Shown here: positions 3,848 to 49,147 of the stretch, piece by piece | Layout: every line of letters begins with the position of its first letter | Numbering within the stretch: position 1 is the first letter of the stretch | DNA from: a virus | Direction: 5' to 3' (one strand) | DNA length: 61,141 nucleotides | IMG/VR virus record: IMGVR_UViG_3300028920_000076 | Span: 1-61,141 of that record | The notes under the pieces: model-generated | The model's database searches: none | The model's input: the letters and a program-made list of their open reading frames with translations, nothing else | What the model was told of the DNA's origin: nothing | Program-made: the position numbers and the translations under genes

Positions 3848-4409
3848 TAAGATCGCATGGCACTACACGTATGAATACAAGGCTACACCTATTTTAACGG
3901 ACGGACATCTGAGGCTTACTCCAGTAGAACCGTTGCCGGGAGAGCCTCAAGGTGTTTGGTTTTCAAAGAATCCTGTCTGGGAGGAGACCGTCCGCAAGAA
4001 GACCGTTATTGTGGATAAGGTAACTGGCGAATCTGTACTCTCGACCGAGCCGCTTGCTCGTGATGAATTTTATGAAGCGACCGGATTCCGGGCCATAAGA
4101 TTTGCAATCGATTGCAGACGTTTCCCTAACCAGCTTTGCGGGTGGAACAACTATCGCAAGAAACTTTTTAAGGTTGGTCATGCCGCCCATGCCAAGGCTC
4201 TTGCGGATACTGCTAAATTATGGAAGGCAGACCCGAAGGATTGGCTTGTCATTTACCGGGAAGTTACTCTATTCGAGCTGCTGAATGAGGTTGAGATCTG
4301 GGATCATGTAGGGGACCGTGGATGGATTCCAGCCGGATTGAAGGTAAATGAGGAGACACGTAAGGTAACCGTTGCTCCTTTAATTGAGATGGGAGGGATA
4401 GCTACGTGA
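3840..4409 (+). CDS. Conserved hypothetical protein, ART-like N-terminus
   Basis: 189 residues from ATG 3840 with GGGAGG upstream. The opening WHYTYEYKATPILTDGHLRL, followed by GVWFSKNPVWEETV, matches a pattern in phage and plasmid proteins and resembles the HxT...I..G.L...vwFS start of ADP-ribosyltransferase-like folds (DarT, KptA). Family function is not established and catalytic residues cannot be assigned. A perfect palindrome copy lies inside the gene at 4103-4116. Confidence 0.75.
   Translation: MPDKIAWHYTYEYKATPILTDGHLRLTPVEPLPGEPQGVWFSKNPVWEETVRKKTVIVDKVTGESVLSTEPLARDEFYEATGFRAIRFAIDCRRFPNQLCGWNNYRKKLFKVGHAAHAKALADTAKLWKADPKDWLVIYREVTLFELLNEVEIWDHVGDRGWIPAGLKVNEETRKVTVAPLIEMGGIAT
4103..4116. 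repeat. Dispersed palindrome, symmetrical form
   Basis: TGCAATCGATTGCA, a perfect 14-bp palindrome within the coding region 3840-4409, reading FAIDC. Confidence 0.9.
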
Positions 4410-6879: not shown

Positions 6880-7971
6880 ATGCGGGATTTGGTAGACTTG
6901 TTGGCGGCGAATCGCCGAGGGGAATGGCCTACCGACGATGACACAATTTCCAATACAGTAAATTCGTTGTGTAACGAGGCTTCAGACATGACGGAGTTTG
7001 ATGACCTCGAACCTGAACCGTCAATTATAATAGAACGACAAACGGAGGACACCACCATGAGTAAAAGACAAAGTAAACCAAAGGCTCACATTCGATCTTA
7101 CGTGACTATCAATGACAAAGACTTCTATCTCGGCACCGGAACTTCCTTGGGTATCGCCAGAGGTCGTGCTGTGAAGTTGCTGAAACAGGCCGACCTGACT
7201 CCGGGTACTGATCCAGTGAGTGCCATTCGTACGACTACCAAGCAGAGGGAGTGGGCTGGCAAGGGAATCGATGCTATTCTCGCCCTCCTGACTGAGCCGG
7301 ATGCTGCTCCAGCCAAGAAGACCGCTGATGACAAAGCTTCCGAGAAGGAAACCAAGCCGGAAAAAGCTGATGCTAAAGGTGAGGAAGATGATCCCGATGT
7401 TATTATGGAGCTGTTGGAGGACGAATCGGCCACCCCCGATAAAAAGGAAGCCGATGAAAAGCCGGATGCCAAGGCCCAGAAGAAGAAAGTCGATGCCAAG
7501 AAGTCGGACACCAAGGCTAAGGATGCGAAGAAACCTGATGAGGAGCCGGAAACCGAAGTCAAGATTGACTCCGAACCTGAAAAGAAGTATGTTGCCGGGA
7601 AGGATATGGTGGATGTGCCCGACTATAAGCCGACCCATAAGAAATTGTTTGGCAGCATGTCGGCTGCGGAGCTGAAGAAACTGACAGAACGGGCTGTTGC
7701 CGAACTTGGAAAGTTGCTGAAAGAGGGTGACTCGGTTATCACCGTTGTCCGAACCGTGACCAAATCTAAGTTTAACGCCAAATGCCATATCTTTGCCAGA
7801 TCCGAGGATGGCGAACTCGTTAATATCACGGAGTATATCAAGAGCCTCGAAAACAAACGGCAGGATTCCAGTGATGTTTTCTTGCTTCGACCGGAGAACA
7901 ATGGCTGGATTCGTCTGATCTCCAAGGCTGTATTTGGAAAGGAAGATGCACTGGACGAGATGCGTATCTAA
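6880..7971 (+). CDS. Charged-linker protein with two possible starts
   Basis: 363 residues from ATG 6880 (GGAGGA site), or 304 from in-frame ATG 7057 (Met60), which has its own CGGAGGA. Residues 65-140 form a compact domain with IRSYVTINDKDFYLGTG. Residues about 145-235 are a disordered Lys/Asp/Glu/Ala linker, and a C-terminal domain (250-363) contains KCHIFARSEDGELVNITEYI. Possibly a DNA-associated or host-takeover protein; unrecognised. It ends 26 bases before a strong terminator, so it may be a single-gene transcript. Confidence 0.8.
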   Translation: MRDLVDLLAANRRGEWPTDDDTISNTVNSLCNEASDMTEFDDLEPEPSIIIERQTEDTTMSKRQSKPKAHIRSYVTINDKDFYLGTGTSLGIARGRAVKLLKQADLTPGTDPVSAIRTTTKQREWAGKGIDAILALLTEPDAAPAKKTADDKASEKETKPEKADAKGEEDDPDVIMELLEDESATPDKKEADEKPDAKAQKKKVDAKKSDTKAKDAKKPDEEPETEVKIDSEPEKKYVAGKDMVDVPDYKPTHKKLFGSMSAAELKKLTERAVAELGKLLKEGDSVITVVRTVTKSKFNAKCHIFARSEDGELVNITEYIKSLENKRQDSSDVFLLRPENNGWIRLISKAVFGKEDALDEMRI

Positions 7972-7996
7972 TGTAGGCTTCATACCGATTGTCCCT

Positions 7997-8040
7997 ATAG
8001 GGGAGTTGATGGAATTAATGTCAGCTCCCCTATTTTATGT
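7997..8040 (+). terminator. Rho-independent terminator
   Basis: ATAGGGGAGTTGA (7997-8009) pairs with TCAGCTCCCCTAT (8021-8033) over 13 positions with one G-T pair, then TTTATG. It ends the 6880 transcript. Confidence 0.8.
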
Positions 8041-8163
8041 GAGGTCACCTGCTGAGATCTGGCGGTTTGTACGGCGATATCCGGGTAGATCGTCTGGCAC
8101 CGAATACTGCAACATGCTTTTAATTGTGGTCGTCAGGAAACGGCTCTCCTTGGTTCTCAGCTT

Positions 8164-8177
8164 TGCAATCGCTTGCA
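8164..8177 (+). repeat. Dispersed palindrome, exact copy
   Basis: TGCAATCGCTTGCA, intergenic, 34 bp upstream of the -35 of the 8212 promoter. Confidence 0.9.
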
Positions 8178-8211
8178 CTCTGGCTTAATTGGTATCGCCC
8201 GTTTTATATAC

Positions 8212-8238
8212 TTGACAAAACTTGCTACCTATTATAGT
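8212..8238 (+). promoter_or_regulatory. Family promoter, 15-bp spacer
   Basis: TTGACA 8212-8217 and TATAGT 8233-8238, with the ACTTGCTACCTATTATA core shared with the 13293 promoter and TCTGGAT downstream. Leads the 8278-10946 cassette. Confidence 0.85.
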
Positions 8239-10772: not shown

Positions 10773-10946
10773 ATGATTAGGCTTATTAGGAAACTGGTTG
10801 GATGTAGCATTGGGCTTCTTGGCATATTGCTTGCATGGTCAGACGGGGGCTGGTTCCCATGGGTGAACTATGTAGGGCTTGGTATTTTCGGTATTATGAT
10901 ATACGTTGCCAATAGAAGTGAGGACCGGTGCAATCGCTTGCAATGA
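10773..10946 (+). CDS. Small membrane protein
   Basis: 57 residues from ATG 10773 (GGGGAAG upstream); the frame opens at 10683 but without a good ribosome site. Two hydrophobic stretches (CSIGLLGILLAW and VGLGIFGIMIYVA). The last codons (CNRLQ) are written by a dispersed palindrome copy. Function unknown. Confidence 0.6.
   Translation: MIRLIRKLVGCSIGLLGILLAWSDGGWFPWVNYVGLGIFGIMIYVANRSEDRCNRLQ
10929..10942 (+). repeat. Dispersed palindrome, exact copy
   Basis: TGCAATCGCTTGCA covers the last codons of the 10773 gene and sits 33 bp upstream of the -35 at 10976. Confidence 0.9.
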
Positions 10947-13049: not shown

Positions 13050-13258
13050 AACACTACGTATCTGATTCATATTGGTGCGACCGGGATGAGCAATTTAAGC
13101 ACTCATTAGTCTGTTTGTATAGGTGTACGGATCAGCCGTACTGCTCACATAGTCTAAAATTCGAGTATTCCTTGCGGATTAAGTTGCAATCGATTGCACT
13201 GGCCCGGATCGGAGGGAACGGTCAGCTTCCCGGCATGGAGAGTGATGAGAAGGAGTGA
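13046..13258 (+). CDS. Small Cys/His hypothetical protein
   Basis: 70 residues from GTG 13046, overlapping the preceding stop as GTGA with AGGAGG nearby. Cys at about residues 11, 23, 27 and 33 could bind zinc. A perfect palindrome copy lies inside (reads LQSIA). Confidence 0.6.
   Translation: MKHYVSDSYWCDRDEQFKHSLVCLYRCTDQPYCSHSLKFEYSLRIKLQSIALARIGGNGQLPGMESDEKE
13185..13198. repeat. Dispersed palindrome, symmetrical form
   Basis: TGCAATCGATTGCA in the 13046 gene, 94 bp upstream of the -35 at 13293. Confidence 0.9.
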
Positions 13259-16694: not shown

Positions 16695-16708
16695 TGCAAT
16701 CGCTTTCA
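16695..16708 (+). repeat. Dispersed palindrome, near copy
   Basis: TGCAATCGCTTTCA, one mismatch. It begins at the base after a stop codon and ends four bases before the -35 hexamer at 16713, so a bound protein would contact RNA polymerase. Confidence 0.75.
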
Positions 16709-16746: not shown

Positions 16747-17106
16747 ATGGACTTAGTAACGACATACGTTGAAGAAATTGACATTAGGTATCGTGAGGCT
16801 AAACGAGATCGTATCCATCCCCGGCAAGACATAGCTTATCAGAAATGGGCTGCGAATATGAACCGTGCCATTTTAAATCACATCACTTCTGGGCACGAGG
16901 ACGCAGAGAGATTGAAGTATGTTCACGGGTATGGACTCGCCAAGACCCAACTCCTTGAGTTGCATATCAAGTCTCGAATTTTGAAAAAGGGACAGAAACG
17001 TAGACTGCGAGAGCACATCAAAGGCCTCCGTAAAATAATATTTGATCGAGAGGAGGCACAATGGGTATCGGACTTCATATCGTCGTTTCAAAAAAGTACG
17101 GACTAA
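16747..17106 (+). CDS. Hypothetical protein, probably leaderless
   Basis: 119 residues. No Shine-Dalgarno precedes ATG 16747, and the -10 box ends only five bases before it. Basic and helical (KSRILKKGQKRRLREHIKGL in the last third). A later Met has no better site. Overlaps the next gene by 46 bp. Unrecognised. Confidence 0.7.
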   Translation: MDLVTTYVEEIDIRYREAKRDRIHPRQDIAYQKWAANMNRAILNHITSGHEDAERLKYVHGYGLAKTQLLELHIKSRILKKGQKRRLREHIKGLRKIIFDREEAQWVSDFISSFQKSTD

Positions 17107-17537
17107 ACCCTTTGCCGATGTGCTGCCCTATTTGTGGTGAGAAGAATGGGTTTGAGGAAGCTGTTGGCGCTGTGCTGCGCTTTGCATGTGAGCACTGTGA
17201 GATGGAGTTCTTCATGCCACCGGGGGCAGCACTACCTATCCGGTGTCACCACTGCGGCTGTAACAAGTTTAAGAATAGGGGCGAAAAGTCGATGGCTAGT
17301 ATGAGTGTTCCGTCTCCTTTTCTATGTGAAAGTTGCTTAGGAATTGAGAGAGATATTGAGAAGGAAGTTGCTGCCGGGGGCTTGCGATGGGCTTGTGGCG
17401 AGTGCATGGCTTTTGGAGCATTGAGCCGGGAAAGTGAATTTACAATAGAATACCGGGAACGCTACGGTAAGCAAACCGTTGATTTTACCGGGACCGGTAA
17501 ATGCCCTAATTGTGGGAGGGGTGATGAGACAGGTTAG
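17061..17537 (+). CDS. Multi-zinc-ribbon phage protein
   Basis: 158 residues behind AGAGGAGGCACA. After MGIGLHIVVSKKYGLNPLPM come CCPICG, CEHC, CHHCG, CESC, CGEC and CPNCG, enough for three zinc ribbons. The opening matches phage proteins of unknown function. Probably a scaffold for nucleic-acid or protein contacts. Confidence 0.8.
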   Translation: MGIGLHIVVSKKYGLNPLPMCCPICGEKNGFEEAVGAVLRFACEHCEMEFFMPPGAALPIRCHHCGCNKFKNRGEKSMASMSVPSPFLCESCLGIERDIEKEVAAGGLRWACGECMAFGALSRESEFTIEYRERYGKQTVDFTGTGKCPNCGRGDETG

Positions 17538-18060
17538 GACAGTAGAACTCGAAGTTGCAACCGTGATTGCCTCTCACGTCACTGCTACACTGGAAAAATC
17601 GTCTTGCCGATACACCGTTTGTGGATCTATGAGGCGGTCTGATTTGGCGAATGTGGGCTCTATTCCGATTATATGTGATAGGACATCATTAAATAGGAGG
17701 TCCGTTGCACGGGCGCTACGGAGGCGAGGATTAAGCATAAGTAAACTTCCCGTTTCCAGAGGAGCTACTGTTGGGAGGGGCTTCTTGGCAAATGGGCTTC
17801 CGGTGTACTTGTACGACTCGGATGATAACGAGTGGGGTGCTGCTACGTTACTACATACCGGCAACTTATTATTTACTCGATTGATGCAGCAACATGCTGC
17901 GTCTTTGGAGTACACGCTTAACGGATACGGACTTTGGCTCGGAGATGATCAAATCGCTGGCAAGGATGAGAGGCAGATTTTCTTCGCTCTGGGAGTATCG
18001 CATGTTGCTCCAAAGTACCGAAACTTCAGGAAGGGAGATAGGCTCCCTATAATCTTATAA
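17524..18060 (+). CDS. DNA polymerase X-like protein lacking catalytic acids
   Basis: 178 residues from ATG 17524, behind GGGAGGG. The layout is that of small phage Pol beta-type nucleotidyltransferases: CGSMRR at 33-38, WGAATLLHTGNLLFTR at 104-119 and the IFFALGVSHVAPKYR end. The acidic pair that binds metal after GSxRR is replaced (NVGSIPII: Ser46 and Pro48), and the third acid in the next core strand reads VYLY. It therefore looks inactive as a polymerase and may act as a DNA-end binding subunit. Overlaps the preceding gene by 14 bp. Confidence 0.75.
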   Translation: MRQVRTVELEVATVIASHVTATLEKSSCRYTVCGSMRRSDLANVGSIPIICDRTSLNRRSVARALRRRGLSISKLPVSRGATVGRGFLANGLPVYLYDSDDNEWGAATLLHTGNLLFTRLMQQHAASLEYTLNGYGLWLGDDQIAGKDERQIFFALGVSHVAPKYRNFRKGDRLPIIL

Positions 18061-18069
18061 GGAGGTAAG

Positions 18070-18597
18070 ATGGATACACGGCAAATTAGAACTAAGAGGA
18101 AGACGAAGCCGACCCAAACCAAGAGCCAGAAATCAAGGTCTCGGACAGTTGCCCAGATTCATACTGCTATTGAACAGGCCGGGAAAACTGAGTCAAAATT
18201 GAAGGAATTGGCCGGGAGCCTGACAGACACCGAGATAGGTCTGTTGGCGGATCAGCATTTGCGTGACACAGAAAAGTCTGCGGAGATTAACAAGGGGATA
18301 TCGTGGATCAAACCGCTTCTTCACTTGTCAGCACGGGAGCAGAAGTGGAAGAAGAAGGAGGGTGATGTCTCTGAGGCAAAAGCCATGGCAGGGTCATCTA
18401 CTGAGTTCACCTGTACGGTCACACAGTTTGTTGCTCTCCTCAAAAAAGAAGGTAAACTCAAGCTGGCCGATGACATCCTTTCAATTCGGTTGGGTGATGC
18501 CAAGAAGTACCTTGGAGAAGCTGCAATAGCACCTGTTACGAAGAAGAAGTCGGACTCCATGGGCCGTTTTTCAATCGCCAGAAAGAAGGGTAAGTAG
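18070..18597 (+). CDS. Basic hypothetical protein
   Basis: 175 residues behind AAGGAGGTAAG. The first 27 residues are rich in Lys, Arg, Thr and Ser and probably disordered; the rest is helical with a basic end (SIARKKGK). Could bind nucleic acid. Last gene before the terminator that separates early and late regions. Confidence 0.75.
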   Translation: MDTRQIRTKRKTKPTQTKSQKSRSRTVAQIHTAIEQAGKTESKLKELAGSLTDTEIGLLADQHLRDTEKSAEINKGISWIKPLLHLSAREQKWKKKEGDVSEAKAMAGSSTEFTCTVTQFVALLKKEGKLKLADDILSIRLGDAKKYLGEAAIAPVTKKKSDSMGRFSIARKKGK

Positions 18598-18633
18598 ACC
18601 GGTCTAACCGTTTGTAAATACCAATCCCACCTC

Positions 18634-18680
18634 GTACCCCATTTGTGCCATACGTGTCCATTTGGGGTACATCTTTTTTC
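18634..18680 (+). terminator. Rho-independent terminator
   Basis: GTACCCCA (18634-18641) pairs with TGGGGTAC (18663-18670), then ATCTTTTTTC. The loop is long (21 bases), but the stem is perfect and the T run strong. Confidence 0.75.
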
Positions 18681-18848
18681 GTTAAAAACTTCCGTAAAAG
18701 CCCGCCGTTTCTGGGATCTCCTACTATAGTCAAATTTGGCTTTTCTCCTATAATACACCCTGACCTACATCGCCTGAAAAACAGAAGTAACCTGAGTTTT
18801 GTAAGTGGCTGATTTGGCAAGGAATATTCAGCTCTCCCAAAATTTTTT

Positions 18849-18863
18849 TGACCTATTATAAAA
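18849..18863 (+). promoter_or_regulatory. Orphan -10 element of the promoter family
   Basis: TGACCTATTATAAAAG matches the conserved CTACCTATTATAAG core, but no -35 hexamer is present upstream (CCCAAAATTTTT instead). It may need an activator, as late phage promoters do, or be a dead copy. Confidence 0.4.
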
Positions 18864-18871
18864 GAAAGTTC

Positions 18872-18900
18872 TTGACCTTGGTTGTGCGTCTGTATATGCT
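18872..18900 (+). promoter_or_regulatory. Promoter of the structural operon
   Basis: TTGACC 18872-18877, 17-bp spacer, TATGCT 18895-18900: a plain sigma70-type promoter unlike the family promoters. It precedes the head gene cluster by about 55 bases. Confidence 0.6.
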
Positions 18901-18963
18901 ATAGAGTGATGAGATATCCGCATGCTGTAAACGAGTTACTAAACAATAGTAAGGAGGTACACA

Positions 18964-19446
18964 ATGACATTGAGAAATAGATCATGTTCGTCATTTTACA
19001 AAGCTTTGCTTGTTTTGCTCACCACCGCCCTCGCCCTGTCACTTCTTGTTTCAATGGCCCATGCCTCAAGTCTACAATGGAATCCTGCCGCATCAGGTGA
19101 TGACCCAGATGGTTATATTGTCTACTACTGGGAGGGAGCCATAGACCGTTTTACTGCGGACGACTTGAAAACTCCGGTTCCTGCTGGTTTGGGAGTAATG
19201 CCGCCTGTGCCGTTTGTGTCTGGTCAGGCAACTTATATGGTTGCTGACATCGAAACGACATTAAATCTACCGAGAGGCCAAGACGTTAATTTTGCAGTAA
19301 CCGCCTATAACAGTACGGGACAGAGTGTTCCGGCAACTCTCAGCGAACCGTTCACTGTCCCGCAATTCTCGCCACCCGCAGAAGTTAAGTTGTGGGTGGA
19401 CCCTGATGAAGTACCTCTGTCGGCAGTCCAGCCGGAGGTGCAGTAA
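18964..19446 (+). CDS. Secreted fibronectin-III-like protein
   Basis: 160 residues behind TAAGGAGGTACACA. A long Sec signal peptide (ALLVLLTTALALSLLVSMAHA) is followed by LQWNPAASGDDPDGYIVYYW and INFAVTAYNS-type strands typical of FN3 domains. A secreted phage protein at the head of the structural operon is unusual; a second FN3 protein lies at 58538. Possibly surface adhesion or superinfection control, by inference. Confidence 0.75.
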   Translation: MTLRNRSCSSFYKALLVLLTTALALSLLVSMAHASSLQWNPAASGDDPDGYIVYYWEGAIDRFTADDLKTPVPAGLGVMPPVPFVSGQATYMVADIETTLNLPRGQDVNFAVTAYNSTGQSVPATLSEPFTVPQFSPPAEVKLWVDPDEVPLSAVQPEVQ

Positions 19447-19461
19447 GAGAAAAGCAATTCT

Positions 19462-20070
19462 ATGAGGGCTGAAAATATGCAATCGCTTGCAACTGGAAAA
19501 ATGGTAGTTAAGGATGAGAAACAACGAATCGTTTACGGGGAGGTATACTCCCCGTTTCGTCTGGATACAGACGGTGAGACCATGACGCAGGAGGACATCG
19601 GCATCATGGCTCAACGATTCATGGAGGATCACCTCGTTAGTAAGATTGACGTTGAGCATGACGAGGTGGAATCTGGAGCAGAAGTCATCCGATCATTTAT
19701 AGCAATGAAAAATGACCCAGATGGATTTGTCGCCGGATCATGGGTATTAGGAGTGAAAGTACATCCTGACCCGCTGTGGGAAAAAGTTATGAAGGGAGAA
19801 CTTAATGGGTTCTCCTTTTCTGGTTCTGTTGACCGAGTACCTGCCGAAGCCGTTGTTCAAATGGTTGTCAGGGCATACGGCGATACGGAGAAGTCTGAAG
19901 ATGGACCGTTGCCACCGCACATTCATAAATGCGATATTTCATTCGATGGGAATGGTCGAGTGCTGCCGGGGCAATTTACCGATTGGTCTTTGGACCACCA
20001 GCACCCCATAGAGAAAGCGACTGCTACCGGCTCCGAGATCGACCACGGACACCGGTTGGTCCTCATTTGA
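19462..20070 (+). CDS. Prohead protease, XkdF-like
   Basis: 202 residues from ATG 19462, or 197 from ATG 19477; neither has a strong ribosome site. KIDVEHDEV, then SFIAMKNDPDGFVAGSWVLG and VMKGELNGFSFSG are the conserved blocks of the XkdF serine protease family, with the His of EHDE and Ser of GFSFSG as likely catalytic residues. It would cleave scaffold and capsid during head maturation. A palindrome copy (19478-19491) starts inside the second ATG. Confidence 0.85.
   Translation: MRAENMQSLATGKMVVKDEKQRIVYGEVYSPFRLDTDGETMTQEDIGIMAQRFMEDHLVSKIDVEHDEVESGAEVIRSFIAMKNDPDGFVAGSWVLGVKVHPDPLWEKVMKGELNGFSFSGSVDRVPAEAVVQMVVRAYGDTEKSEDGPLPPHIHKCDISFDGNGRVLPGQFTDWSLDHQHPIEKATATGSEIDHGHRLVLI
19478..19491 (+). 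repeat. Dispersed palindrome at a start codon
   Basis: TGCAATCGCTTGCA exact. It begins in the ATG at 19477, so binding or RNA structure here could affect initiation of the protease. Confidence 0.9.
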
Positions 20071-21228: not shown

Positions 21229-21242
21229 TGCAATCGCTTGCA
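21229..21242 (+). repeat. Dispersed palindrome, exact copy
   Basis: TGCAATCGCTTGCA between scaffold and major capsid genes, 12 bases after the stop. Confidence 0.9.
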
Positions 21243-24381: not shown

Positions 24382-25359
24382 ATGACTCCGAGTACTGACA
24401 ATTATACTCTTGGGAAGGGCATTGTTTACTTCAATAAGAAGGAAACTGATGGCTCTTACAAGGGTGAACGTGATCTGGGGAACGCCCCCGAATTTACGTT
24501 CAATATTGAACTGGCGGCTCTGGAGCACTACTCCAGCCGGGGTGGACTCCGGGCCAAGGATAAGAAGGTGATTAACGAGATCACTCCGGGAGTTGCCTTC
24601 ACGCTGGATGAGATTACCGACGAAAACCTTGCGTTGCTCACAATGGGCGAGGTTGAGTCCGTAGTACAGGCCATTGCGGATTTTACGGATGACTTCACAG
24701 AAGTCACCCTTGACCGCTTTGTGGAGCTGTCCAAACGGGCCGTTGGGATCTTCGTCCTTCCCATTGAAAACACAGTCGGTGGCCCTTTCGAGATCGGGGA
24801 AACCGTAACCGGTGGGACCAGTGCTGCAACCGCTGTTGTTGCCGAGCAATCTGCTGATTCTCTGAAGCTTGTTACTGTGGTCGGAACTTTCCAAGCCGCA
24901 GAAGAAATTACAGGCGGGACCAGTTCTGCAACCGCTGATACCACCGGGGTTGGTGCCATTACTTCCGGTGTGCTGGCCGTTACGGACGATACCGAGACCA
25001 CGCAGTATGTGGCCGGGACCGACTACACCGTCGATGCTGCCGTAGGCCGTGTTAAACTGCTGGATACCGGTTCCATCGCTGCGGACTCTGATGTCAAGAT
25101 TAAGGGTTCGTGTGAGGCGTCCACCTACAAGAAGATCAAGGCTATTGCGGTCTCCGAGTTGGAAGGTGCTCTGCGTTTTGTATCTGACAATCCTGTTGGT
25201 AACAATATGGAGCTTCAGATACACCGTGCTTCTCTGACCCCTGCCGGTGATACGGCTATGATCGGTGAGGACTGGAGTACTCTTGGTTTTGAGGGGGAAG
25301 TCCTCAAAGATGAAACTGGCCATCCCGACAGCCCGTACTTCAATATTCTTATGACGTAG
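24382..25359 (+). CDS. Major tail tube protein
   Basis: 325 residues behind TGGGAGGAAAACG. TLGKGIVYFNK and the later LRFVSDNPVGNNMEL and SLTPAGDTAMIG blocks are typical of siphophage tube proteins, flanked by terminator and chaperone genes. Residues about 135-205 hold a tandem Ig-like or carbohydrate-like insert: ETVTGGTSAATA and EEITGGTSSATA repeat about 40 residues apart. The repeat may project from the tube surface. Confidence 0.8.
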   Translation: MTPSTDNYTLGKGIVYFNKKETDGSYKGERDLGNAPEFTFNIELAALEHYSSRGGLRAKDKKVINEITPGVAFTLDEITDENLALLTMGEVESVVQAIADFTDDFTEVTLDRFVELSKRAVGIFVLPIENTVGGPFEIGETVTGGTSAATAVVAEQSADSLKLVTVVGTFQAAEEITGGTSSATADTTGVGAITSGVLAVTDDTETTQYVAGTDYTVDAAVGRVKLLDTGSIAADSDVKIKGSCEASTYKKIKAIAVSELEGALRFVSDNPVGNNMELQIHRASLTPAGDTAMIGEDWSTLGFEGEVLKDETGHPDSPYFNILMT

Positions 25360-25393: not shown

Positions 25394-25432
25394 AAAGGGG
25401 CCGGATGCAATCGCTTGCACGGCCCCTTTTTC
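25394..25432 (+). terminator. Terminator with dispersed palindrome as its loop
   Basis: AAAGGGGCCG (25394-25403) pairs perfectly with CGGCCCCTTT (25420-25429), then TTTCC. The loop is exactly the 14-bp palindrome plus flanking GA. The tube gene is made in large amounts and a terminator here would lower downstream tail genes. Confidence 0.8.
25406..25419 (+). repeat. Dispersed palindrome in terminator loop
   Basis: TGCAATCGCTTGCA exact, forming the loop of the 25394 terminator. The loop itself could also fold by its own symmetry. Confidence 0.92.
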
Positions 25433-26165: not shown

Positions 26166-29100
26166 CGTACTGACGAAAACAATTCGAGTTATTATCAAGG
26201 CGATTGACCAGACCGGGGGAATAGTCAAGTCAGTTGCCGGTGGTCTTGGCAAACTCGGCGATCAGGCTAAGAAGACAGGTAAAGATCAGGACGGTCTCAG
26301 AAAAGGCACGGAGAAGGCCACTGATGCTGTCCGAAAGCAGGGAGCCCAAGTCAAGAAGGGAGCAGGTGCCTTACGTCTTTTCGGATCGTCTTCCCAGAAG
26401 GCCCGGAGAGAAGTCACTGCTATGGGTACTGCTGCCAAGTCTGCCGGTGCCGGTATCGGAAGTCTTATCTCCAAGTTTACCACTGCCGCTGCGACTATAG
26501 GCACTATTGCTTTCCCGATTGCCAAGGCTGCTCAGTTCGAGAGGGCCATGGCAACTGTCGGTGCTGTATCGGGTGCCACCGGAAAAGACCTTGATTCGTT
26601 GACCATGAAAGCACGGGAGATGGGCGAGAAGACTGAGTTCTCTGCCACCCAAGCTGCGGACGGTCTCCGATTCTTGGCGATGGCCGGTCTTAATGTAGAA
26701 CAACAACTCGCCGCTCTCGAACCCGCCCTGAACCTTGCCCTTGCCGGTAATATCGAACTTGGACAAGCTGCTGATATAGCCACCAACATCATGACAGGTT
26801 TCGGTGCTTCAGTTTCCGAACTTCCCGGCATGATGGACGTACTGACCCAAGCCTTCACGAACAGTAATACAAACCTCACCGAACTCGGCCATGCAATGGC
26901 CTACGTTGCCCCTGTCGCTGCCGGGATGGGTGTAGAGTTCAACGACCTTGTATCTGCAATGTCAGCCCTTGCCAATGCTGGCCTGAAGGGGTCGATTGCT
27001 GGAACGGCTCTCAGAGGTACACTTGTTAAGCTATTCAAGCCGACCGCCAAATCTGAGAAGGTCATGCAATCGCTTGCACAACGTATCGGACAGACCAACA
27101 TTGAACTGCGAAATGCGGAAGGTGGATTCATTGGGTTTGCCGGACTTATTGACCAGTTTGCAGCCGCCAACGTTTCGGCTGCTGAGGCCATGGAGATATT
27201 TGGTCTACGTGCTGGACCCGCTTTCATTGCCTTGTTGAACCAAGGGTCTGCGGAGATGCGGAGATTCAACAAGTTGATGGATGAAGCTGGAGGTAGAACC
27301 GCTGAGATTGCAAAGGTTATGGGGAATAACTTTGTCGGTGCTACGAAACAGCTCCTATCCTCGTTGCAGGAACTCGCCATTAACTTTGGGTCTGCTTTTC
27401 TTGGTGATCTGAAGGAAGCTACTCTGTCGATACGAGATTTGGTTATCAGTATCAACACGTGGGTCAGTGCGAACAAGACGCTTGTTAAAAATGTCGGATA
27501 TGCTGTCGCTGCACTCGGAGCACTCTCGGCTGCGGCTGGACTTCTGGCAGTTTTCAAGACTCTTGCCGTTGTTGCATTGGGTCCATTTACTAGTGCTCTC
27601 AATTTGATCAAAGCTAAGGGTCTTGTTGCCGTTGCTGCCCTCGCTACCATCGCTGCTACGTGGGGAGAACTAATTTATGAGATGGTGAAGTCCAACGGAG
27701 ATCTTGAGAAATCCGTTGAGAACTGGGACTTTGCCAAGTGGCTCAATAACCTGACGTTGCCTTTCATCGAATCAAAGAAAACCATTGGTGACTTCGCCAC
27801 CTATGCAATCGCCTTCTGGGATAAGTTTTTCTCGAAGATCGGATATGGGTGGGCGTTGATCCCTGTGGCTATGAAATCTGCGTTTTCTGATGGGTTGGAT
27901 CTCATAGCAAATTTTGCACAAAATATCCTTAATACCATGAAGGAAGTTCCCGGCCTCGGACAGTTGTTAGGATGGAGCGGGGATGTAGACAGAATCCAGC
28001 AGTCTATCGATGGTATTCGAGCTGCGGCACAACGGCTGAATACCGAAGCACAGAACGGATACCGTGCTGCGAACAAAGCTTATCAACAGCAAATCAAATA
28101 TGCCAATGATACCCAAGCCGGTATCGAGCGGACTGCTGCGGCCAGAGAACGGGAAGCACAGCTTATTGATTACATGGGAAGGCGAGAATCAGCGGTTGCC
28201 CAACTCCGTGCCAATGCTCAGTCTGAGATTCGGGAAGCAACAAAGAGTGTTCGGGAGGAGATCGAGAAACAAAACAGAGTCCTCAAGGGTCTCTATGAAC
28301 GTGTCGGACAGGCATCTGAGAGATACAAGATATTTGTCGATCAAGCAAAATCTGCGCTCGAATCGCTTGGAAAAGCTACGAATAAGGCGCTTTCGAGTAT
28401 CTGGGAAAACGTTACCAATGATCAGGCTGTGGCTGATGTCGAGAGACAACTTCAGCAAATCCAAAGGCAATACGAAACGTACTCGGACCAAGGTGCTGCT
28501 GCCATAAGACGAGCAGAGAGTTCTATCTCAAAGGCCAGAATTGAGGCAACCAGAAATGGTGTTGATGAGTCACTCGCCCTTATTGAAGCCCAGAGGACTC
28601 GTGAGATTGCACTGCTTAACGAGACCAAAGAGAAAGAGGTTGCGGTTGCCAAGGCTACGATAAGTGATGTTGCCACGCAGAGGAAGCGTCTGGAGCAGAT
28701 CGAAAAGGATAGTCAGAGAAATATCGTTGCTGTTAATGAGAAAACTCTGGCCCAGAAGAAAGCGTTGTACGAGAAGGCTACCACGGCACTCAAGTCCGAA
28801 TTGGATAAATCGCTATCTGCCGAGCGTTCCATTGCCGATGAGATTATCGCTGTTCAAGACAAGATCCGAAATTCTAAAAAGTCCACCGAGGAGCTTGTTC
28901 GTGGACTGAGAAGGCAGGGATTGTCAGAGGAGAGAGCGTATGCTGACGAAGTTGCGGAAGTAGATGAGAAGATCGCTGCTGCGACTAAGTTGATGGCGAC
29001 CGACACGAAGAAGTCTATCCAACTGTTGCAAGAAGCCCAGAGACAAGCCTCTGGACTTGTGGGTGAAATTTCCAGTGGCGAGAAGATACTCGTCTCTGAA

Positions 29101-32100
29101 CAGCAAACGATCAACGAAGCTATTTCACAAGTTGAGAGAGCCCAGAGTGCAATCGAAGCTGGAGCTGCCTCTTACCAACAGAGTCTACAAGGACAGCTTC
29201 AGGCTCAGAAGCAAAACACGGATGGTATTGTCAAACAGCTTGATGCGGTCGGCGGGAAGCTGCAAGATACTCGTGATCAAATGCAGCAAGGCATCGAGAT
29301 CAGTATCAGGATCGAGCTTGGAGATTTTGAAGCTCGGCTGGAAGATATTACCAGACAGAGAGAAATTGTTGTCGGTCTCGAAACCCAGTTTGCGGAAGGA
29401 AAGCAGGAACTAACCGCTCTGCAAAAAGATCTGGCAGATACCACTGAAGTCGTCAAGATTAAATACGATGCGGAGATTGCCGATGCTATCCGTGCGATGG
29501 ACGAAGTTGAACGTAAGAAGCTTGGAATCGCAGAGATCAGAGACGTTATTAAGATAGACGCTGATAACCAAGCTGCTGTCGTGGCCCTGAATGTTCTCTA
29601 TGAGGACGGGGAACGTGTACGGAAAAAGCTTGAACAGCCCATGCCGATTTCACTGGAGACCGCCAAGGCTATCCAAGCTGCGAATGATCTCGATGATACG
29701 ATCAGTCCGATTATGGATGAGCTTAGGAGACAAGAGAAGTTAGGAATAGACGTTTCCGAGGCTAAGGTTGCAGTTGTCGAGTTCGGGGATGATATAGATG
29801 GTCTCACCCAGAAGCTTTCGGAAATGGGAGTTATCCGAATTGAGGGTGCTACGGAATCGTTTGTTGCTGCCGCCGAATCCGCTGCCGACCTCGAAGAACG
29901 TGTCAACTCATTAATCAACGTGACTGACGAGCATATTGTCGTGGATGTTTCAGCAGCCGGACAGGACGATGTGCAAGCGATTGCAGGGCTAGTAAAGCAA
30001 CTGCAAGAGGACACCGAAAAAGAACTGGCTATCCAATTTGGTGAGATCGAAGGGTTTGAGCAGTTTAAAGAAGTACAGGAACGTGCCGATAAGTTGAAAA
30101 ATGCCGTTGCTGCTCTCAATGCGGAGACCCCAGACGTTGAGGTTGAGGGTGGAGAAGAACTTGAACAGGTTGCGGAGGACGCATCTACGGCAGCCGACGG
30201 GGTTGCTGAATTAGCGGCTGCATCTGGTGAATTGGAGGATGTGGGAGTTGATGTAACCGTCGAGGGGATTGACGAAGCTAAGGAAAAGTTTGATGGATTC
30301 GTCGAGGACGTAGCTACTTCTGAGGCAACTGTCACGGTAGACGTTGATGACTCCGGTGTCGATGAGACTACCCAGAAAGTTTTGGGACTTAACGAGCTGG
30401 AATCTCAGTCTGCACATATCGTGAATCCTGAAGCTGATAAGGTGCTTGGAGTAATTTCCCAGATTAGAAAACCGACTTCCTCAACGCATACAATTTACGT
30501 CAAGAAGGTTGTCCAGAGTGCTGTTGGAGGCTTTGTTGACGGGATATCAGAATATGCCAAGGGTGGCCCAGTTGCGAAGCGATTTAAAAAGCTCACCCGG
30601 CCTTATATTCCGGGAGACGGAACCGAAGATGACGTACCGGCAATGCTAATGAGAGGCGAGTATGTTGTTCGTAAGGATGCCGTTAAGAAATATGGTATCG
30701 GGTTGTTGAATAAGATAAACGGAATGAATATTGATGTAGTGCCGAAGTTTGCCAAGGGTGGACCTGTGGGTATGTCTGCTGCGTTGAATTTGATACCGAC
30801 GATGGCATCCGGTGCTGTGACAAGACTTCTCGGAAGTGGAGGAGTCAACTTTAATTCAGGAACCGCCCAGAGAATAAGTACTCCCATGGGTAAGAACATA
30901 GCCAACGGACTTGCCAACCTTTTTACCAGTAGTGTCCAGAAGTTGCAGGGAGGCGGTTTCCTATCCCGATCCCGTTCTCTATTCGAGCAACAAAAGCAAT
31001 CCATCACGAAGCAATATGCTGCCCAGATGCAACTCGCCCGACTGAACGGCGAGGAGCAGATTGCTTATCTGCTTGAAGTGGAGCAAGAGGAGCTTCAGAG
31101 GATGGCAGATGAGCTTGCTACCGCTTTGGTGCAGATCCAGAATGAATACGAAGCTGCGATTGCCGAGTCTGACCTTGCTTTCGATGAGGAAAGGACAGAT
31201 ATCGAACGTGAACTTTCCGAGCTTCAGACGGATATCGAAAACGACCGTGAAGAACTCACGACATCCCATAGTAAGGAAGTCAATGAATTGCAGAGTAGGA
31301 TCGGTGAGCTACGATCCGACATAAAGGGTAATACCTTAAAGTCTAAACAGACCACCTTCAGCCTTCCCGGTGCTGGACGGTACACTCTCAGGCGTAATCC
31401 AGCACAGCAAGCAGCATTTGATCAGATCCCGAAAGACAAAGCTGAGATCGAAAAGCTTGAAAGGCAGCTCACTACGTCAGAACGTGCATTTCAAAGGAAG
31501 GAAGAATTTTATCAAAATCAGCTTGCCAAAGTTAGGAAGGAAGGTACTGAGGATTTGGAATATATTGGCAAGGAAAAAGCCGTTGCGGATAAAGGTGCCG
31601 AGAGGGATCGTGACTTCGGGACTGAGAAGGCAGAGAGCACTACTCTCCATGCCCAGAACAAGTTGAGAATAGAGACTAAACACCAAGTAGCACAGGTTGG
31701 GTTTGATACCCAGAAATCAGTACTCGAATTTGAGGGAAATTTACGAAGCGAGCTTCTCGATATAGAACGTGCCATGCTGGAGGAGGAGAAGCAAGCGGCG
31801 GCTGAGAGGGCTGCTGCTGCGAAGACCGGAGGGCTCAAGTATTTTCTTGCCGCTGGCGGAGCCATACCTCGTAAGGAAAAATGGATTCCCGGTGATGGTG
31901 TTACGGATTCCGTACCTGCTATGTTGATGAGAGGGGAGTATGTTGTCAATAAAAATGCAGTTAAGAAATTCGGAGTCGGATTCTTTGACATGCTAAACGC
32001 CGGGGCTTTGAACTTCTCCAAGTTTGCTTCTGGTGGTCTTGTGGGTATGAAACGACAGCTCGATTTACTGTTTAACTCCAGAGCGCCTTATACCAACGGT

Positions 32101-33516
32101 GATGGGATGGTCATGAACCTTAATAATCCCACGTTTATCGGCTCCATTAGGGATAGGGTGTCTGGACTATCAGAGATGGGCCAAAGACGCTCTGCGGGGC
32201 TTCTGAGCGCCTTTAATGGAGGTGTTACGAGGTTACAAGAGGGAGGGGCTATCGATCAGGCCCAATTAGACCTCGCAAAAGAGAAAGAACTTGTAACCGC
32301 ACAATATCAAGCCCAGATCGAAGCTGCCCGAAACGTTGGCGCTGTGGATATCGCTGCCTTACTGGAGGAGGAGAGATATGAGTTAGAATTACTGGCAAAC
32401 GACCTCCAGTTTCTACTACAAGAGCTTCAATCCGAGTACGAATATGAACGAGCACTACTGGCTGAAGAACTGGAAGCCGAGAAACAAGAGGCTGAGGCAG
32501 CTCTACAGCAGGAACTTAGTGATATCCGAGCGGCCAGAGCACAGGCTGCGATTGACTATGAAAATGCAAAACAGGAAGCAAAACGACTGAAGGTTCAATC
32601 TGGATATGACGCTGCCCATGCTTACAGATTGCCTACCCGATATCCAAGACCCGCTAACAAATACGCTGCCCTGAGCGAATTTCTGTCTGGAGGATTGACC
32701 GAGACCGAGAGAAAAGTTAAAGATGTTGAGTTCAGGGACAAAAGGAATGAGGCCAGAACTGAGGCCCGAAACATGCGTCAGGAAGGGATTGCACTGGAGA
32801 GAAGTGCTGAACTGGAGTATAAACGAGCACAGCAAGAGGGAAAAAGAGGCAAGGAACGGGCCGAGAAGGATAAGGCTAAGAGTGAGAGAAACGCCCAGAG
32901 GCGCTACCAGATAGACCTAAGACGTACCGATCAGACCTTCCAACGTGAGACTTCAAAAGCTGAGAAGGAAGCTGAGACCGAAACCGTCTCCATACAAAAC
33001 AAGAGTGTTATAAATGTTGAGAAGGCAAAGGTCGAGACTCAGGGTGAGATTGCAAAGCTTGAAGCAGATCTTGCTCTGGAGTTGTTCAAACTGGAGAAGG
33101 AATATCGTGACCAGAACAAGGCTAACATTGGTGGAGTAAGACACTTCTTGCGAGAAGGTGGATCTGTCGGGTTTCCTGCCGGTGCGAAAAGAGGAGCTGA
33201 CTCCATAAAGGCCATGCTGACACCGGGAGAATTTGTTATGCGACCGGAAGCAGTTAAGACATTTGGCCTGAAATTTATGGATGCTGTGAACCGCCTGAAG
33301 ATGCCAGCTATAAGATTTGCGGAAGGTGGGCTCGTACCGGGTAATGGGAATTTGCAATCGCTTGCACCCGCTCAGGCCATAGGACGTGACCCAGAATACG
33401 CTGCTAAACTCGTGCTCGAACTTGGAGGTAAGGAATACCCGATGCGTACGAAGACGGACGTTGGACAAGATCTCGTTAAACAATTTAGAACTCTTGGATT
33501 GGCGGTGGCCCGATGA
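26158..33516 (+). CDS. Tape measure protein
   Basis: 2452 residues from GTG 26158. Residues about 115-330 are a TP901/PhageMin_Tail domain (FERAMATVGAVSG, then LRFLAMAGLNVEQQLAAL). Hydrophobic segments follow at about 440-500. Long coiled coils (640-1300; 1600-1880; 2030-2320) set tail length. Three related modules with GGxx, PGDG, VPAMLMRGEYVV and AVKKYGIG lie at about 1457-1540, 1897-1965 and 2331-2391. By the usual 1.5 angstrom per residue rule the tail would exceed 300 nm. Three palindrome copies lie inside. Confidence 0.95.
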   Translation: MADVLTKTIRVIIKAIDQTGGIVKSVAGGLGKLGDQAKKTGKDQDGLRKGTEKATDAVRKQGAQVKKGAGALRLFGSSSQKARREVTAMGTAAKSAGAGIGSLISKFTTAAATIGTIAFPIAKAAQFERAMATVGAVSGATGKDLDSLTMKAREMGEKTEFSATQAADGLRFLAMAGLNVEQQLAALEPALNLALAGNIELGQAADIATNIMTGFGASVSELPGMMDVLTQAFTNSNTNLTELGHAMAYVAPVAAGMGVEFNDLVSAMSALANAGLKGSIAGTALRGTLVKLFKPTAKSEKVMQSLAQRIGQTNIELRNAEGGFIGFAGLIDQFAAANVSAAEAMEIFGLRAGPAFIALLNQGSAEMRRFNKLMDEAGGRTAEIAKVMGNNFVGATKQLLSSLQELAINFGSAFLGDLKEATLSIRDLVISINTWVSANKTLVKNVGYAVAALGALSAAAGLLAVFKTLAVVALGPFTSALNLIKAKGLVAVAALATIAATWGELIYEMVKSNGDLEKSVENWDFAKWLNNLTLPFIESKKTIGDFATYAIAFWDKFFSKIGYGWALIPVAMKSAFSDGLDLIANFAQNILNTMKEVPGLGQLLGWSGDVDRIQQSIDGIRAAAQRLNTEAQNGYRAANKAYQQQIKYANDTQAGIERTAAAREREAQLIDYMGRRESAVAQLRANAQSEIREATKSVREEIEKQNRVLKGLYERVGQASERYKIFVDQAKSALESLGKATNKALSSIWENVTNDQAVADVERQLQQIQRQYETYSDQGAAAIRRAESSISKARIEATRNGVDESLALIEAQRTREIALLNETKEKEVAVAKATISDVATQRKRLEQIEKDSQRNIVAVNEKTLAQKKALYEKATTALKSELDKSLSAERSIADEIIAVQDKIRNSKKSTEELVRGLRRQGLSEERAYADEVAEVDEKIAAATKLMATDTKKSIQLLQEAQRQASGLVGEISSGEKILVSEQQTINEAISQVERAQSAIEAGAASYQQSLQGQLQAQKQNTDGIVKQLDAVGGKLQDTRDQMQQGIEISIRIELGDFEARLEDITRQREIVVGLETQFAEGKQELTALQKDLADTTEVVKIKYDAEIADAIRAMDEVERKKLGIAEIRDVIKIDADNQAAVVALNVLYEDGERVRKKLEQPMPISLETAKAIQAANDLDDTISPIMDELRRQEKLGIDVSEAKVAVVEFGDDIDGLTQKLSEMGVIRIEGATESFVAAAESAADLEERVNSLINVTDEHIVVDVSAAGQDDVQAIAGLVKQLQEDTEKELAIQFGEIEGFEQFKEVQERADKLKNAVAALNAETPDVEVEGGEELEQVAEDASTAADGVAELAAASGELEDVGVDVTVEGIDEAKEKFDGFVEDVATSEATVTVDVDDSGVDETTQKVLGLNELESQSAHIVNPEADKVLGVISQIRKPTSSTHTIYVKKVVQSAVGGFVDGISEYAKGGPVAKRFKKLTRPYIPGDGTEDDVPAMLMRGEYVVRKDAVKKYGIGLLNKINGMNIDVVPKFAKGGPVGMSAALNLIPTMASGAVTRLLGSGGVNFNSGTAQRISTPMGKNIANGLANLFTSSVQKLQGGGFLSRSRSLFEQQKQSITKQYAAQMQLARLNGEEQIAYLLEVEQEELQRMADELATALVQIQNEYEAAIAESDLAFDEERTDIERELSELQTDIENDREELTTSHSKEVNELQSRIGELRSDIKGNTLKSKQTTFSLPGAGRYTLRRNPAQQAAFDQIPKDKAEIEKLERQLTTSERAFQRKEEFYQNQLAKVRKEGTEDLEYIGKEKAVADKGAERDRDFGTEKAESTTLHAQNKLRIETKHQVAQVGFDTQKSVLEFEGNLRSELLDIERAMLEEEKQAAAERAAAAKTGGLKYFLAAGGAIPRKEKWIPGDGVTDSVPAMLMRGEYVVNKNAVKKFGVGFFDMLNAGALNFSKFASGGLVGMKRQLDLLFNSRAPYTNGDGMVMNLNNPTFIGSIRDRVSGLSEMGQRRSAGLLSAFNGGVTRLQEGGAIDQAQLDLAKEKELVTAQYQAQIEAARNVGAVDIAALLEEERYELELLANDLQFLLQELQSEYEYERALLAEELEAEKQEAEAALQQELSDIRAARAQAAIDYENAKQEAKRLKVQSGYDAAHAYRLPTRYPRPANKYAALSEFLSGGLTETERKVKDVEFRDKRNEARTEARNMRQEGIALERSAELEYKRAQQEGKRGKERAEKDKAKSERNAQRRYQIDLRRTDQTFQRETSKAEKEAETETVSIQNKSVINVEKAKVETQGEIAKLEADLALELFKLEKEYRDQNKANIGGVRHFLREGGSVGFPAGAKRGADSIKAMLTPGEFVMRPEAVKTFGLKFMDAVNRLKMPAIRFAEGGLVPGNGNLQSLAPAQAIGRDPEYAAKLVLELGGKEYPMRTKTDVGQDLVKQFRTLGLAVAR
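27065..27078 (+). repeat. Dispersed palindrome, exact copy
   Basis: TGCAATCGCTTGCA in the tape measure gene, read as MQSLA. Confidence 0.9.
29972..29985 (-). repeat. Dispersed palindrome, reverse orientation
   Basis: TGCAAGCGATTGCA, reverse complement of the main form, in the tape measure gene, read as VQAIA. Confidence 0.9.
33353..33366 (+). repeat. Dispersed palindrome, exact copy
   Basis: TGCAATCGCTTGCA near the end of the tape measure gene, read as LQSLA. Confidence 0.9.
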
Positions 33517-37107: not shown

Positions 37108-37121
37108 TGCAATCGCTTGCA
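37108..37121 (+). repeat. Dispersed palindrome, exact copy
   Basis: TGCAATCGCTTGCA starting at the base after the stop of the 36124 gene, 15 bases before the next ATG. Confidence 0.92.
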
Positions 37122-40905: not shown

Positions 40906-40919
40906 TGCAATCGATTGCA
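40906..40919. repeat. Dispersed palindrome, symmetrical form
   Basis: TGCAATCGATTGCA one base after a stop codon and 11 bases before ATG 40931; it abuts the GAGGAG ribosome site of the sulfotransferase gene. Confidence 0.92.
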
Positions 40920-42854: not shown

Positions 42855-43382
42855 ATGGAAAAAGAAGAAGTGAAACTCGAAAAGGGTGATTTCTTTTGCA
42901 GTAAGAATCCCATGGCTCTCGGCAAAATCATTAATGCTGTCCAGTGGTTCTGGTCAACTGATAACGAGTCGAGATATACGCATGCCGGGATTATTGTTGC
43001 CGAGGACGGTACTACACTGGAGTCTTTGTGGACCGTCAAGAATCAAAATCTCTGGGAAGCTTATGCCGGTGAGAGAGTTATCATTGGACGTTACGAAAAG
43101 ATGACCCCTGAGATTTTTGAGAAGGGGATGCAAGCGATTGCAGAACATAAGGGTAAGATTTATCCAGTTCTTCGGCTACTACTATTTGGCATACCACCCG
43201 TTGCCAAATTTCTATATATAGGACTCGTGGTGTGTTCCGAGTTGACTGCCAAGTTTTTGTGCTCGATGGGAGCACTTAACTATTGGAAAGGCAAGATGCC
43301 CGACAATATCCATGACGCTATGAAATATCGTCGAGGGTTCAAAGTCGTGGCAGAACTTGAAATCCCTAAAAAGGAGGTTTAA
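42855..43382 (+). CDS. Permuted papain-like hydrolase, possible endolysin
   Basis: 175 residues behind CCGGAGGT. GDFFCSKNP opens the domain, RYTHAGIIVAEDG holds His43, and VVCSELTAKF holds Cys127. This order, His before Cys, is that of permuted NlpC/P60 (YiiX-like) peptidases and amidases. Neighbouring membrane proteins suggest cell-wall or lipid-linked action. A palindrome copy is inside. Confidence 0.75.
   Translation: MEKEEVKLEKGDFFCSKNPMALGKIINAVQWFWSTDNESRYTHAGIIVAEDGTTLESLWTVKNQNLWEAYAGERVIIGRYEKMTPEIFEKGMQAIAEHKGKIYPVLRLLLFGIPPVAKFLYIGLVVCSELTAKFLCSMGALNYWKGKMPDNIHDAMKYRRGFKVVAELEIPKKEV
43129..43142 (-). repeat. Dispersed palindrome, reverse orientation
   Basis: TGCAAGCGATTGCA in the hydrolase gene, read as MQAIA. 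Confidence 0.9.
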
Positions 43383-47693: not shown

Positions 47694-49147
47694 TGCAAAA
47701 GTTTTTGAAGAACGTTACCACTGGACGCCTCCGAGTTGGAGATGTTGGTAAGAAAATCGATGCCGGTGAAGTACGCCGGATTGACGGCAAGGACATTCAT
47801 CGCTGGCTGAACAGTGACGACACACTTGACTACATACGTGCTGGTGATCTGCAAGTCGGTGCTGCGATTGATTTCTTTTACTCCGATGCGCTGGAGGGAG
47901 AGCTTTATTTCAATTCGCTGTTTGACGATGATGCATACGTGCTGGATGGAAGTACACTGGAGGAGGTCACTCCTGCCGTTGTTACAGACAGTATTACCGG
48001 GAAGAAGTCAACCACTGAGTTCTTTGCTATTCAATCCATGATGCGTGAACTCTACAACGCTACGTCCAATCCGTTTTATCATGCCAGTGTCACCCCGATT
48101 CTGGGTGCCGGGGGAATCCTCGAAACCATGGCAGGTAGAACGTTAAATCTGGAGACCATCTTGGGTAAGACCGGATGGTACACACAGGAAGTAAAAGAGT
48201 GGGCATACCAGAAACCGTATGCCATCCTGTTTTACTACGGCTGGCCCAACGCCTTCAACTCCGCTCAGAATGGGTGGGATAATGAGAAGGTTGCTCAGGA
48301 AATGTCCAAGTACCGGATTGTCGTTTTTGGGAATGGGCTGGAGCTTCCTACTCATGGAGACCACGCCAATCTGCAAGCGATTGCAACGAGGATTAAGGCC
48401 CTCAACTCAAACACGCAAATATTCGGGTATGCCTCTGTAAACCAGACGCAGACTGCGTTCGAGACACAGGTGGACAACTGGAAGGACAACATCGGTGTCC
48501 ACGGCATCTTCATGGATGAGGCCGGATACGATTACGGCAAGACCAGACAGGAGTTCAATACTGCGGTGGATTACGTCCACGACGAAGGCTTGATCTGCTT
48601 CGCAAACGCATGGAATATGAACCATGTTCTGGGAACCGCCAACGATCCAAGCTACCCGAACACCACATATAACCCGTCTGCGGACGAGTCGAATCTGGCA
48701 CAGACTGATTGGTATCTGATGGAGTCCCTTGCCGTCAATACCCTTGTCTACTCTGGAGACGGAGTTGCCCCGAAAGCGGACTTTGTGGCTCGTGTGAATA
48801 CCATGACCACGCTCCGTGCGACCTACGGGATCAACGTTGCTGCTATCAACGTGATTAACGACTCACACGCACAGGGACAGGCACTTTTCGACTTCGCCTT
48901 TATCGCTGCCTGTATTGCATCTCTGGAGGGAGTGGGATCGTCAGACGATTACTACGGGGCCTCCAGTGCGAAGACGAAGTTCTGGGACCGACCGGATGTC
49001 AGTGAGATCGGGAGGCTCTGGGACTTGTGGCCCATGCTATCAGCAGACAACAATGATGCGGACAAGGTGCTTCGCTTTCTCGACTTTGGACGCCTGATGC
49101 TGGACTTCTCCACAGGAGCGGTTGATAGTGACATTCTGAAATACTAA
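47693..49147 (+). CDS. Spherulin-4-like glycoside hydrolase fibre
   Basis: 484 residues from ATG 47693, which overlaps the upstream TAA, GGAGG before it. After an N-terminal 140-residue attachment region, AILFYYGWPNAFNSAQNGWD, FGYASVNQTQTAFETQVDNW and GVHGIFMDEAGYDY give the TIM-barrel layout of spherulin-4/GH135-type hydrolases, with Asp/Glu of FMDEAGYD as likely catalytic. Probably cuts a host polysaccharide. A palindrome copy lies inside. Confidence 0.8.
   Translation: MQKFLKNVTTGRLRVGDVGKKIDAGEVRRIDGKDIHRWLNSDDTLDYIRAGDLQVGAAIDFFYSDALEGELYFNSLFDDDAYVLDGSTLEEVTPAVVTDSITGKKSTTEFFAIQSMMRELYNATSNPFYHASVTPILGAGGILETMAGRTLNLETILGKTGWYTQEVKEWAYQKPYAILFYYGWPNAFNSAQNGWDNEKVAQEMSKYRIVVFGNGLELPTHGDHANLQAIATRIKALNSNTQIFGYASVNQTQTAFETQVDNWKDNIGVHGIFMDEAGYDYGKTRQEFNTAVDYVHDEGLICFANAWNMNHVLGTANDPSYPNTTYNPSADESNLAQTDWYLMESLAVNTLVYSGDGVAPKADFVARVNTMTTLRATYGINVAAINVINDSHAQGQALFDFAFIAACIASLEGVGSSDDYYGASSAKTKFWDRPDVSEIGRLWDLWPMLSADNNDADKVLRFLDFGRLMLDFSTGAVDSDILKY
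48372..48385 (-). repeat. Dispersed palindrome, reverse orientation
   Basis: TGCAAGCGATTGCA in the hydrolase fibre gene, read as LQAIA. Confidence 0.9.

Follow-up and report, generated by a model that had tools for sequence, protein, structure and literature searches.

The stretch analyzed here (the window) comprises all 61,141 nucleotides of IMG/VR virus record IMGVR_UViG_3300028920_000076. Between two genes assigned in PHROGs as major tail protein (the tail-tube gene) and tail assembly chaperone, it carries a hairpin whose apical part is a 14-bp palindrome, TGCAATCGCTTGCA, copies of which form an array over the whole window (Table 1). In sequence and predicted fold, positions 25394-25431 have the hallmarks of a rho-independent terminator, a GC-rich stem followed by a T run, and the 10-bp stem and T run around the palindrome described in the earlier note on this DNA are present as claimed. 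The RNA fold (-23.7 kcal/mol) consists of the 10-bp stem, a 2-nt GA bulge and a 5-bp stem contributed by the palindrome. Because the palindrome pairs with itself, the sole unpaired apical loop is a UCGC tetraloop; the 14-mer is thus enclosed by the terminator stem, as had been noted, but does not form an open loop in the RNA. For the chaperone frame, the first ATG given by the open reading frame finder (25405) falls in the palindrome; the start at 25450 has an AAGGAG signal. The identical hairpin is found in an independently assembled contig (G009/L273) that is 99.5% identical to the window.

The terminator holds only one of the 20 palindromes in the window, of which 18 are exact copies of TGCAA-N4-TTGCA and two (420 and 16695) carry one mismatch. 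A count at up to one mismatch gave 21 matches to this pattern, against 2.0 expected. The window consensus is TGCAA-TCGC/TCGA-TTGCA, of the T-G-N10-C-A type, and 47 matches to the 14-mer are present at up to three mismatches (4.7 expected). Dinucleotide shuffles and reversed patterns served as chance controls, and the reversed pattern gave zero matches in the genome search. Sites occur about once per 3 kb with a mean spacing of 3169 bp, a minimum of 1659 bp and a coefficient of variation of 0.29; none of 20,000 random placements was equally even. According to gene calls made with our own script, gaps contain 11 of the 20 copies and called genes nine, three of them in the tape-measure gene and one in the DNA polymerase gene. 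As a finding, the array far outweighs the terminator.

Table 1. Palindrome array sites in the window and parts of the hairpin downstream of the tail-tube gene.
Feature	Position	Strand	Sequence	Context
Array site, one mismatch	420-433	+	TGAAATCGATTGCA	just downstream of TTGACA promoter at 381
Array site	4103-4116	.	TGCAATCGATTGCA	
Array site	8164-8177	+	TGCAATCGCTTGCA	47 bp upstream of TTGACA promoter
Array site	10929-10942	+	TGCAATCGCTTGCA	46 bp upstream of TTGACA promoter
Array site	13185-13198	.	TGCAATCGATTGCA	107 bp upstream of TTGACA promoter
Array site, one mismatch	16695-16708	+	TGCAATCGCTTTCA	flush after stop codon; 17 bp upstream of TTGACA promoter
Array site	19478-19491	+	TGCAATCGCTTGCA	
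Array site	21229-21242	+	TGCAATCGCTTGCA	intergenic, ahead of major capsid gene
Rho-independent-terminator-like hairpin	25394-25431	+		between tail-tube gene (24382-25359) and tail-chaperone gene (start 25450); apical part is the palindrome
Hairpin left arm	25394-25403		AAAGGGGCCG	
GA bulge	25404-25405			left side of hairpin
Array site	25406-25419	+	TGCAATCGCTTGCA	in terminator hairpin
Hairpin right arm	25420-25429		CGGCCCCTTT	
T run, five T	25427-25431			
Array site	27065-27078	+		within tape-measure gene
Array site	29972-29985	-		within tape-measure gene
Array site	33353-33366	+		within tape-measure gene
Array site	37108-37121	+		flush after stop codon
Array site	40906-40919	.	TGCAATCGATTGCA	intergenic
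Array site	43129-43142	-		within a gene
Array site	48372-48385	-		within a gene
Array site	50716-50729	+		intergenic, directly after stop codon
Array site	53848-53861	+		within DNA polymerase gene (PHROGs)
Array site	57629-57642	-		within minor head/morphogenesis-like gene (PHROGs)
Array site	60632-60645	+	TGCAATCGCTTGCA	intergenic, 3-4 bases ahead of hairpin without good T run

Relatives were recruited by capsid and polymerase; many of them are IMG/VR fragments, and the genes of unannotated genomes were called by our script. Genome-wide arrays were also found in DLP5, DLP3, SM1, P11VFA, HJ05, JP1, RcTiptonus, RHph_TM16, V-YDF132, PG28, KarBoss, LV6 and many IMG/VR contigs, a set assembled partly via the motif itself, so that it gives no unbiased figure for how many phages have arrays. 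The 4-bp core is particular to each genome: TCAA/TTGA in DLP5 (31 sites; site duplex for DLP3, also with 31 sites, and DLP5: TGCAATCAATTGCA), ACGC/GCGT/GCGC in SM1 (30 sites), CTGG/CCGG in HJ05 (16 sites), ACGT/ACAT in JP1 (33 sites), TCGA in RcTiptonus (27 sites), TTAA in V-YDF132 (25 sites) and a TAAA-type core in G012 (29 sites); P11VFA carries 47 sites. The arms are sometimes changed as well, namely to TGCAGT..ACTGCA in G019, GCACT..AGTGC in G020, TGATCT/TGAACT in G018 and TCCAA..TTGGA in L293, L297 and L304. A motif-free search returned TGCAA-N4-TTGCA or a near variant as the top enriched palindrome family in most genomes. No comparable array was found in three Vibrio phages of the clade (VHS1, HC and 1.215.A). 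Common to this large clade of tailed phages, whose named members include phages of proteobacterial hosts, is the array as such and not fixed positions, with a palindrome about every 3 kb running through genes and between genes.

The 14-bp palindromes are under strong purifying selection. DLP5 and DLP3 share 84.6% identity across 88.8 kb, and all 30 aligned sites are kept, with mismatches at 0 of 300 arm positions and 6 of 120 core positions versus 15.4% in the 30-bp flanks on each side. In the annotated DLP3 genome 23 of 31 sites lie within genes and 8 of 31 in gaps, where 4.6% would be expected (p = 6e-5), and across 27 genomes only 33 intervals between sites were shorter than 700 bp, versus 113 by random placement. 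The enrichment in gaps of DLP3 and the scarcity of short intervals therefore indicate that sites are preferred between genes and are kept apart.

The window has no direct nucleotide relatives in the phage collection, and the DNA polymerase used as a probe in IMG/VR found none. The matching contig mentioned above (G009, 27 kb) has identical site spacing. A second contig of 26 kb from the same metagenome as G009 (G008, L348/L349) continues the gene order of the relative G001 past the right end of the window and contains eight further sites of the window type together with genes for terminase, SSB, a phrog_17202 protein and a ParB-like protein. Judged by synteny and the shared site type, it is probably the remainder of the phage to which the window belongs. 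In G001 itself, the AAA ATPase (L021:2054-4480, G001 16751-19177) has 808 aa versus about 544 aa in relatives; the additional segment interrupts the P-loop and resembles an intein that includes an HNH-type endonuclease portion.

We put the chances at even that a dimeric protein encoded by the phage binds these sites and organizes or silences the whole genome. Each copy would be bound by a dimeric helix-turn-helix protein decorating the entire phage genome, in the manner of the chromosomal and plasmid systems Noc/NBS, KorB or RacA/ram, and such a coat might compact, partition or silence phage DNA. DLP5 is temperate with a plasmid-like prophage (PMC5834331; PMC7326821), which would suit partition or silencing. 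The sites would be placed at least cost, preferably in gaps between genes, and one such gap holds the tail-tube terminator, whose hairpin the palindrome at 25406 would lengthen incidentally.

Several known systems resemble the array in part. Bacillus Noc, a ParB-family CTPase, binds about 70 palindromic NBS sites over the replicon (PMC4331003). Shared with the phages are palindromic sites of similar length dispersed over a whole replicon and a ParB-family protein in most array phages; the array sequence differs, the phage replicon measures 80-120 kb with a site every 3 kb, and the ParB-like protein is missing in some array genomes. The ram site is a 14-bp inverted repeat, and the helix-turn-helix of RacA is of the MerR type. 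The ram sites are spread over the B. subtilis chromosome and are bound by the N-terminal helix-turn-helix of RacA (PMC6593407). A MerR-type helix-turn-helix protein is likewise conserved in the phage replication module, but array-less relatives have it as well, and it does not diverge in step with the motif. SPBRE is a repeated operator across the SPbeta prophage that is bound by the master repressor MrpR (PMC10516654). The motif, 15 bp long, occurs in about ten promoter regions, whereas the evenly spaced array runs through genes: confinement to promoter regions of the SPBRE type was not found, with 9 of 20 window sites and 23 of 31 DLP3 sites in genes.

Three proteins are candidates for the binder: the ParB-like protein (phrog_26387), the MerR-type helix-turn-helix protein and phrog_17202. 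When all genes of V-YDF132 and LV6 were compared, the ParB-like gene was the best phyletic match, present in none of 3 array-less genomes and in 13 of 15 array genomes, a count that takes in ParB_N proteins of other architecture in SM1, HJ05, G007 and P11VFA. The protein has a ParB N-terminal fold (PF02195, E 1e-9 to 1e-13), its profile matches ParB, Noc and KorB structures (E 1e-15 to 2e-7), and it is auto-annotated as 'nucleoid occlusion protein' in V-YDF132 and PG28; no Pfam helix-turn-helix match was obtained for a central domain that would read the site. Its gene lies upstream of the large terminase gene and in several genomes adjoins or is near a glycosyltransferase gene (L418/L419 and L204). 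DLP5 DNA is resistant to most restriction enzymes (PMC5834331), so that a DNA-modification role of the glycosyltransferase/ParB-like/terminase cluster is possible. In SM1, HJ05 and G007, a tandem pair of ParB_N genes, of which the second carries a fused methyltransferase-like domain, takes the place of the terminase-linked ParB-like protein, and in G018 the ParB-like gene and the phrog_17202 gene are each split into two frames (7375-8230 and 32721-33491). The MerR-type protein has a basic N-terminus (L348:19567-19980, L418:42427-42828, L174:11370-11777) and is found in most but not all array genomes; phrog_17202 is found in 26 of 27. A host factor is an unlikely binder because the core differs between closely related phages.

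A number of observations weigh against genome-wide binding by one of these proteins. The ParB-like protein was detected in 21 of 27 array genomes and is absent in G002, LV6, G015, G016, G022 and G024, Arthrobacter phages carry it without an array, and neither its divergence nor that of the MerR-like protein tracks motif divergence. The phrog_17202 and MerR-like proteins also occur in the array-less VHS1, HC and 1.215.A, and the AlphaFold models of the ParB-like and phrog_17202 proteins were too poor to use (pLDDT 42-43). No candidate passes every test. We rejected the ParB-like protein as a proven binder, on account of the six array genomes that lack it, its presence in Arthrobacter phages without an array and the missing correlation with the motif. 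A gp32-like SSB, a RecB-like protein and phrog_17202 were likewise set aside as assignments by presence or absence alone, as these are general parts of the replication module that also occur in array-less members. To this must be added that the promoter-gap association and partial strand bias described below fit a role in transcription equally well.

Such a role could be that of a stoperator-like array, in which a repressor would bind all sites in lysogeny, block promoters and stop elongating RNA polymerase, and the core would define the immunity type. The number of sites, their spread over the genome and the change of consensus among relatives resemble the about 24 short repressor sites of phage L5 (PMC5712189), and DLP5 is temperate and plasmid-like (PMC5834331). 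The window contains seven repeated sigma70-like promoters on the plus strand (381, 6786, 8211, 10975, 13292, 16712 and 59407) of the form CTTGACAAAA, about 17 bp, then a TATTAT/TATAAT-like element, and the palindrome is present in 5 of the 7 gaps with such a promoter versus 4 of the 22 other gaps (Fisher p = 0.016). Asymmetric cores in gaps are one-stranded relative to transcription in the window (7:0), DLP3 (9:0) and JP1 (8:0). These two observations are the best arguments for a repressor-type role. The strand bias is only partial, however, with none in SM1, G011 or G018, and the repressor is putative. Cluster A stoperators, although also many, short, distributed genome-wide and variable in consensus among relatives, are asymmetric 13-mers, mostly intergenic and oriented with transcription, whereas the array consists of evenly spaced 14-bp palindromes that often lie within genes (23 of 31 in DLP3); asymmetry of the stoperator type was not seen, as in every exact site the arms, TGCAA and TTGCA, are perfect inverted repeats of each other. 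We consider this explanation improbable, if well worth keeping in view. The earlier note proposed that a protein bound to the palindrome could modulate termination between the tail-tube and tail-chaperone genes. The hairpin and T run are real and match rho-independent terminators, except that a copy of the array palindrome makes up the apical part; in L297 and L304, too, a hairpin at the corresponding position encloses a palindrome, here of their own type (TCCAATCAATTGGA). An enclosing stem of at least 6 bp is present at 9 of 441 distinct sites (2.0%), 2.9-fold above the 0.7% at shifted positions, and at 1 of the 18 exact-arm window sites; conversely, 98% of sites lie outside any hairpin. Terminator-like hairpins with unrelated loops follow the tail-tube gene in V-YDF132, PG28, VHS1, 1.215.A, HC, G007, L294 and L298, the very pattern that the earlier note had named as refuting its proposal. 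The palindromes that L271, L295 and G007 carry in this gap stand apart from any terminator hairpin. Moreover, the palindrome by itself strengthens the hairpin. The second copy at 60632 does stand 3-4 bases ahead of a hairpin, but this hairpin is without a good T run. As a general role, the regulatory terminator loop was rejected, since stem-enclosed sites are rare and the loops of relatives unrelated, and protein-controlled termination at this locus is very unlikely. What holds of the proposal is that the 14-mer is very probably a protein-binding element, its letters being conserved while the flanks drift, and that some link to transcription is possible given the promoter-gap association and the L297 and L304 hairpins. 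The placement in the terminator probably reflects the use of permissive intergenic sequence, a self-complementary site in a hairpin perhaps having a small advantage.

Alternatively, a factor for replication or packaging might enter or load at the palindromes, making repeated use of them along the genome. Motif distance was tracked by the distances of the replication-module proteins SSB, DnaB, AAA and primase, and not by those of capsid, portal, terminase, ParB-like and MerR-like proteins, and the position of the ParB-like gene upstream of the large terminase is often that of a small terminase. These correlations, of modest size (0.2-0.4) and without correction for multiple testing, may come from nothing more than the common ancestry of the replication module; in addition, we know of no phage that uses 20-30 replication or packaging sites of such a kind, which counts against this explanation and makes it quite unlikely in our eyes. 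A chance or neutral origin of the array, such as from a short mobile repeat or from base composition, is contradicted by the dinucleotide-shuffle and reversed-pattern controls and refuted by 300 arm positions without a change beside flanks that diverge by 15.4%; its probability is practically nil.

A literature search with the exact palindromes matched two papers, neither of them on phages, and other wordings returned no description; because most subscription papers fell outside this search, it is weak evidence of novelty. On balance, we lean slightly toward the view that this large clade of tailed phages carries a previously undescribed whole-genome array and that its reader, a phage protein, differs in specificity from one phage to the next. 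On this view viruses would have their own equivalent of dispersed centromere, nucleoid-occlusion or stoperator systems, in which the sites and the protein that reads them co-evolve. Evenly spaced, strongly conserved sites over a viral genome imply a protein acting on the entire phage chromosome, and near-fixed arms with a core, and sometimes arms, that vary between close relatives offer a natural series for the change of specificity in a DNA reader. Since the sites are exact and easily found, and DLP3, DLP5, SM1, JP1, RcTiptonus and V-YDF132 are cultured, the binder should be directly retrievable. The array also provides a simple sequence signature by which the clade can be recognized in metagenomes.
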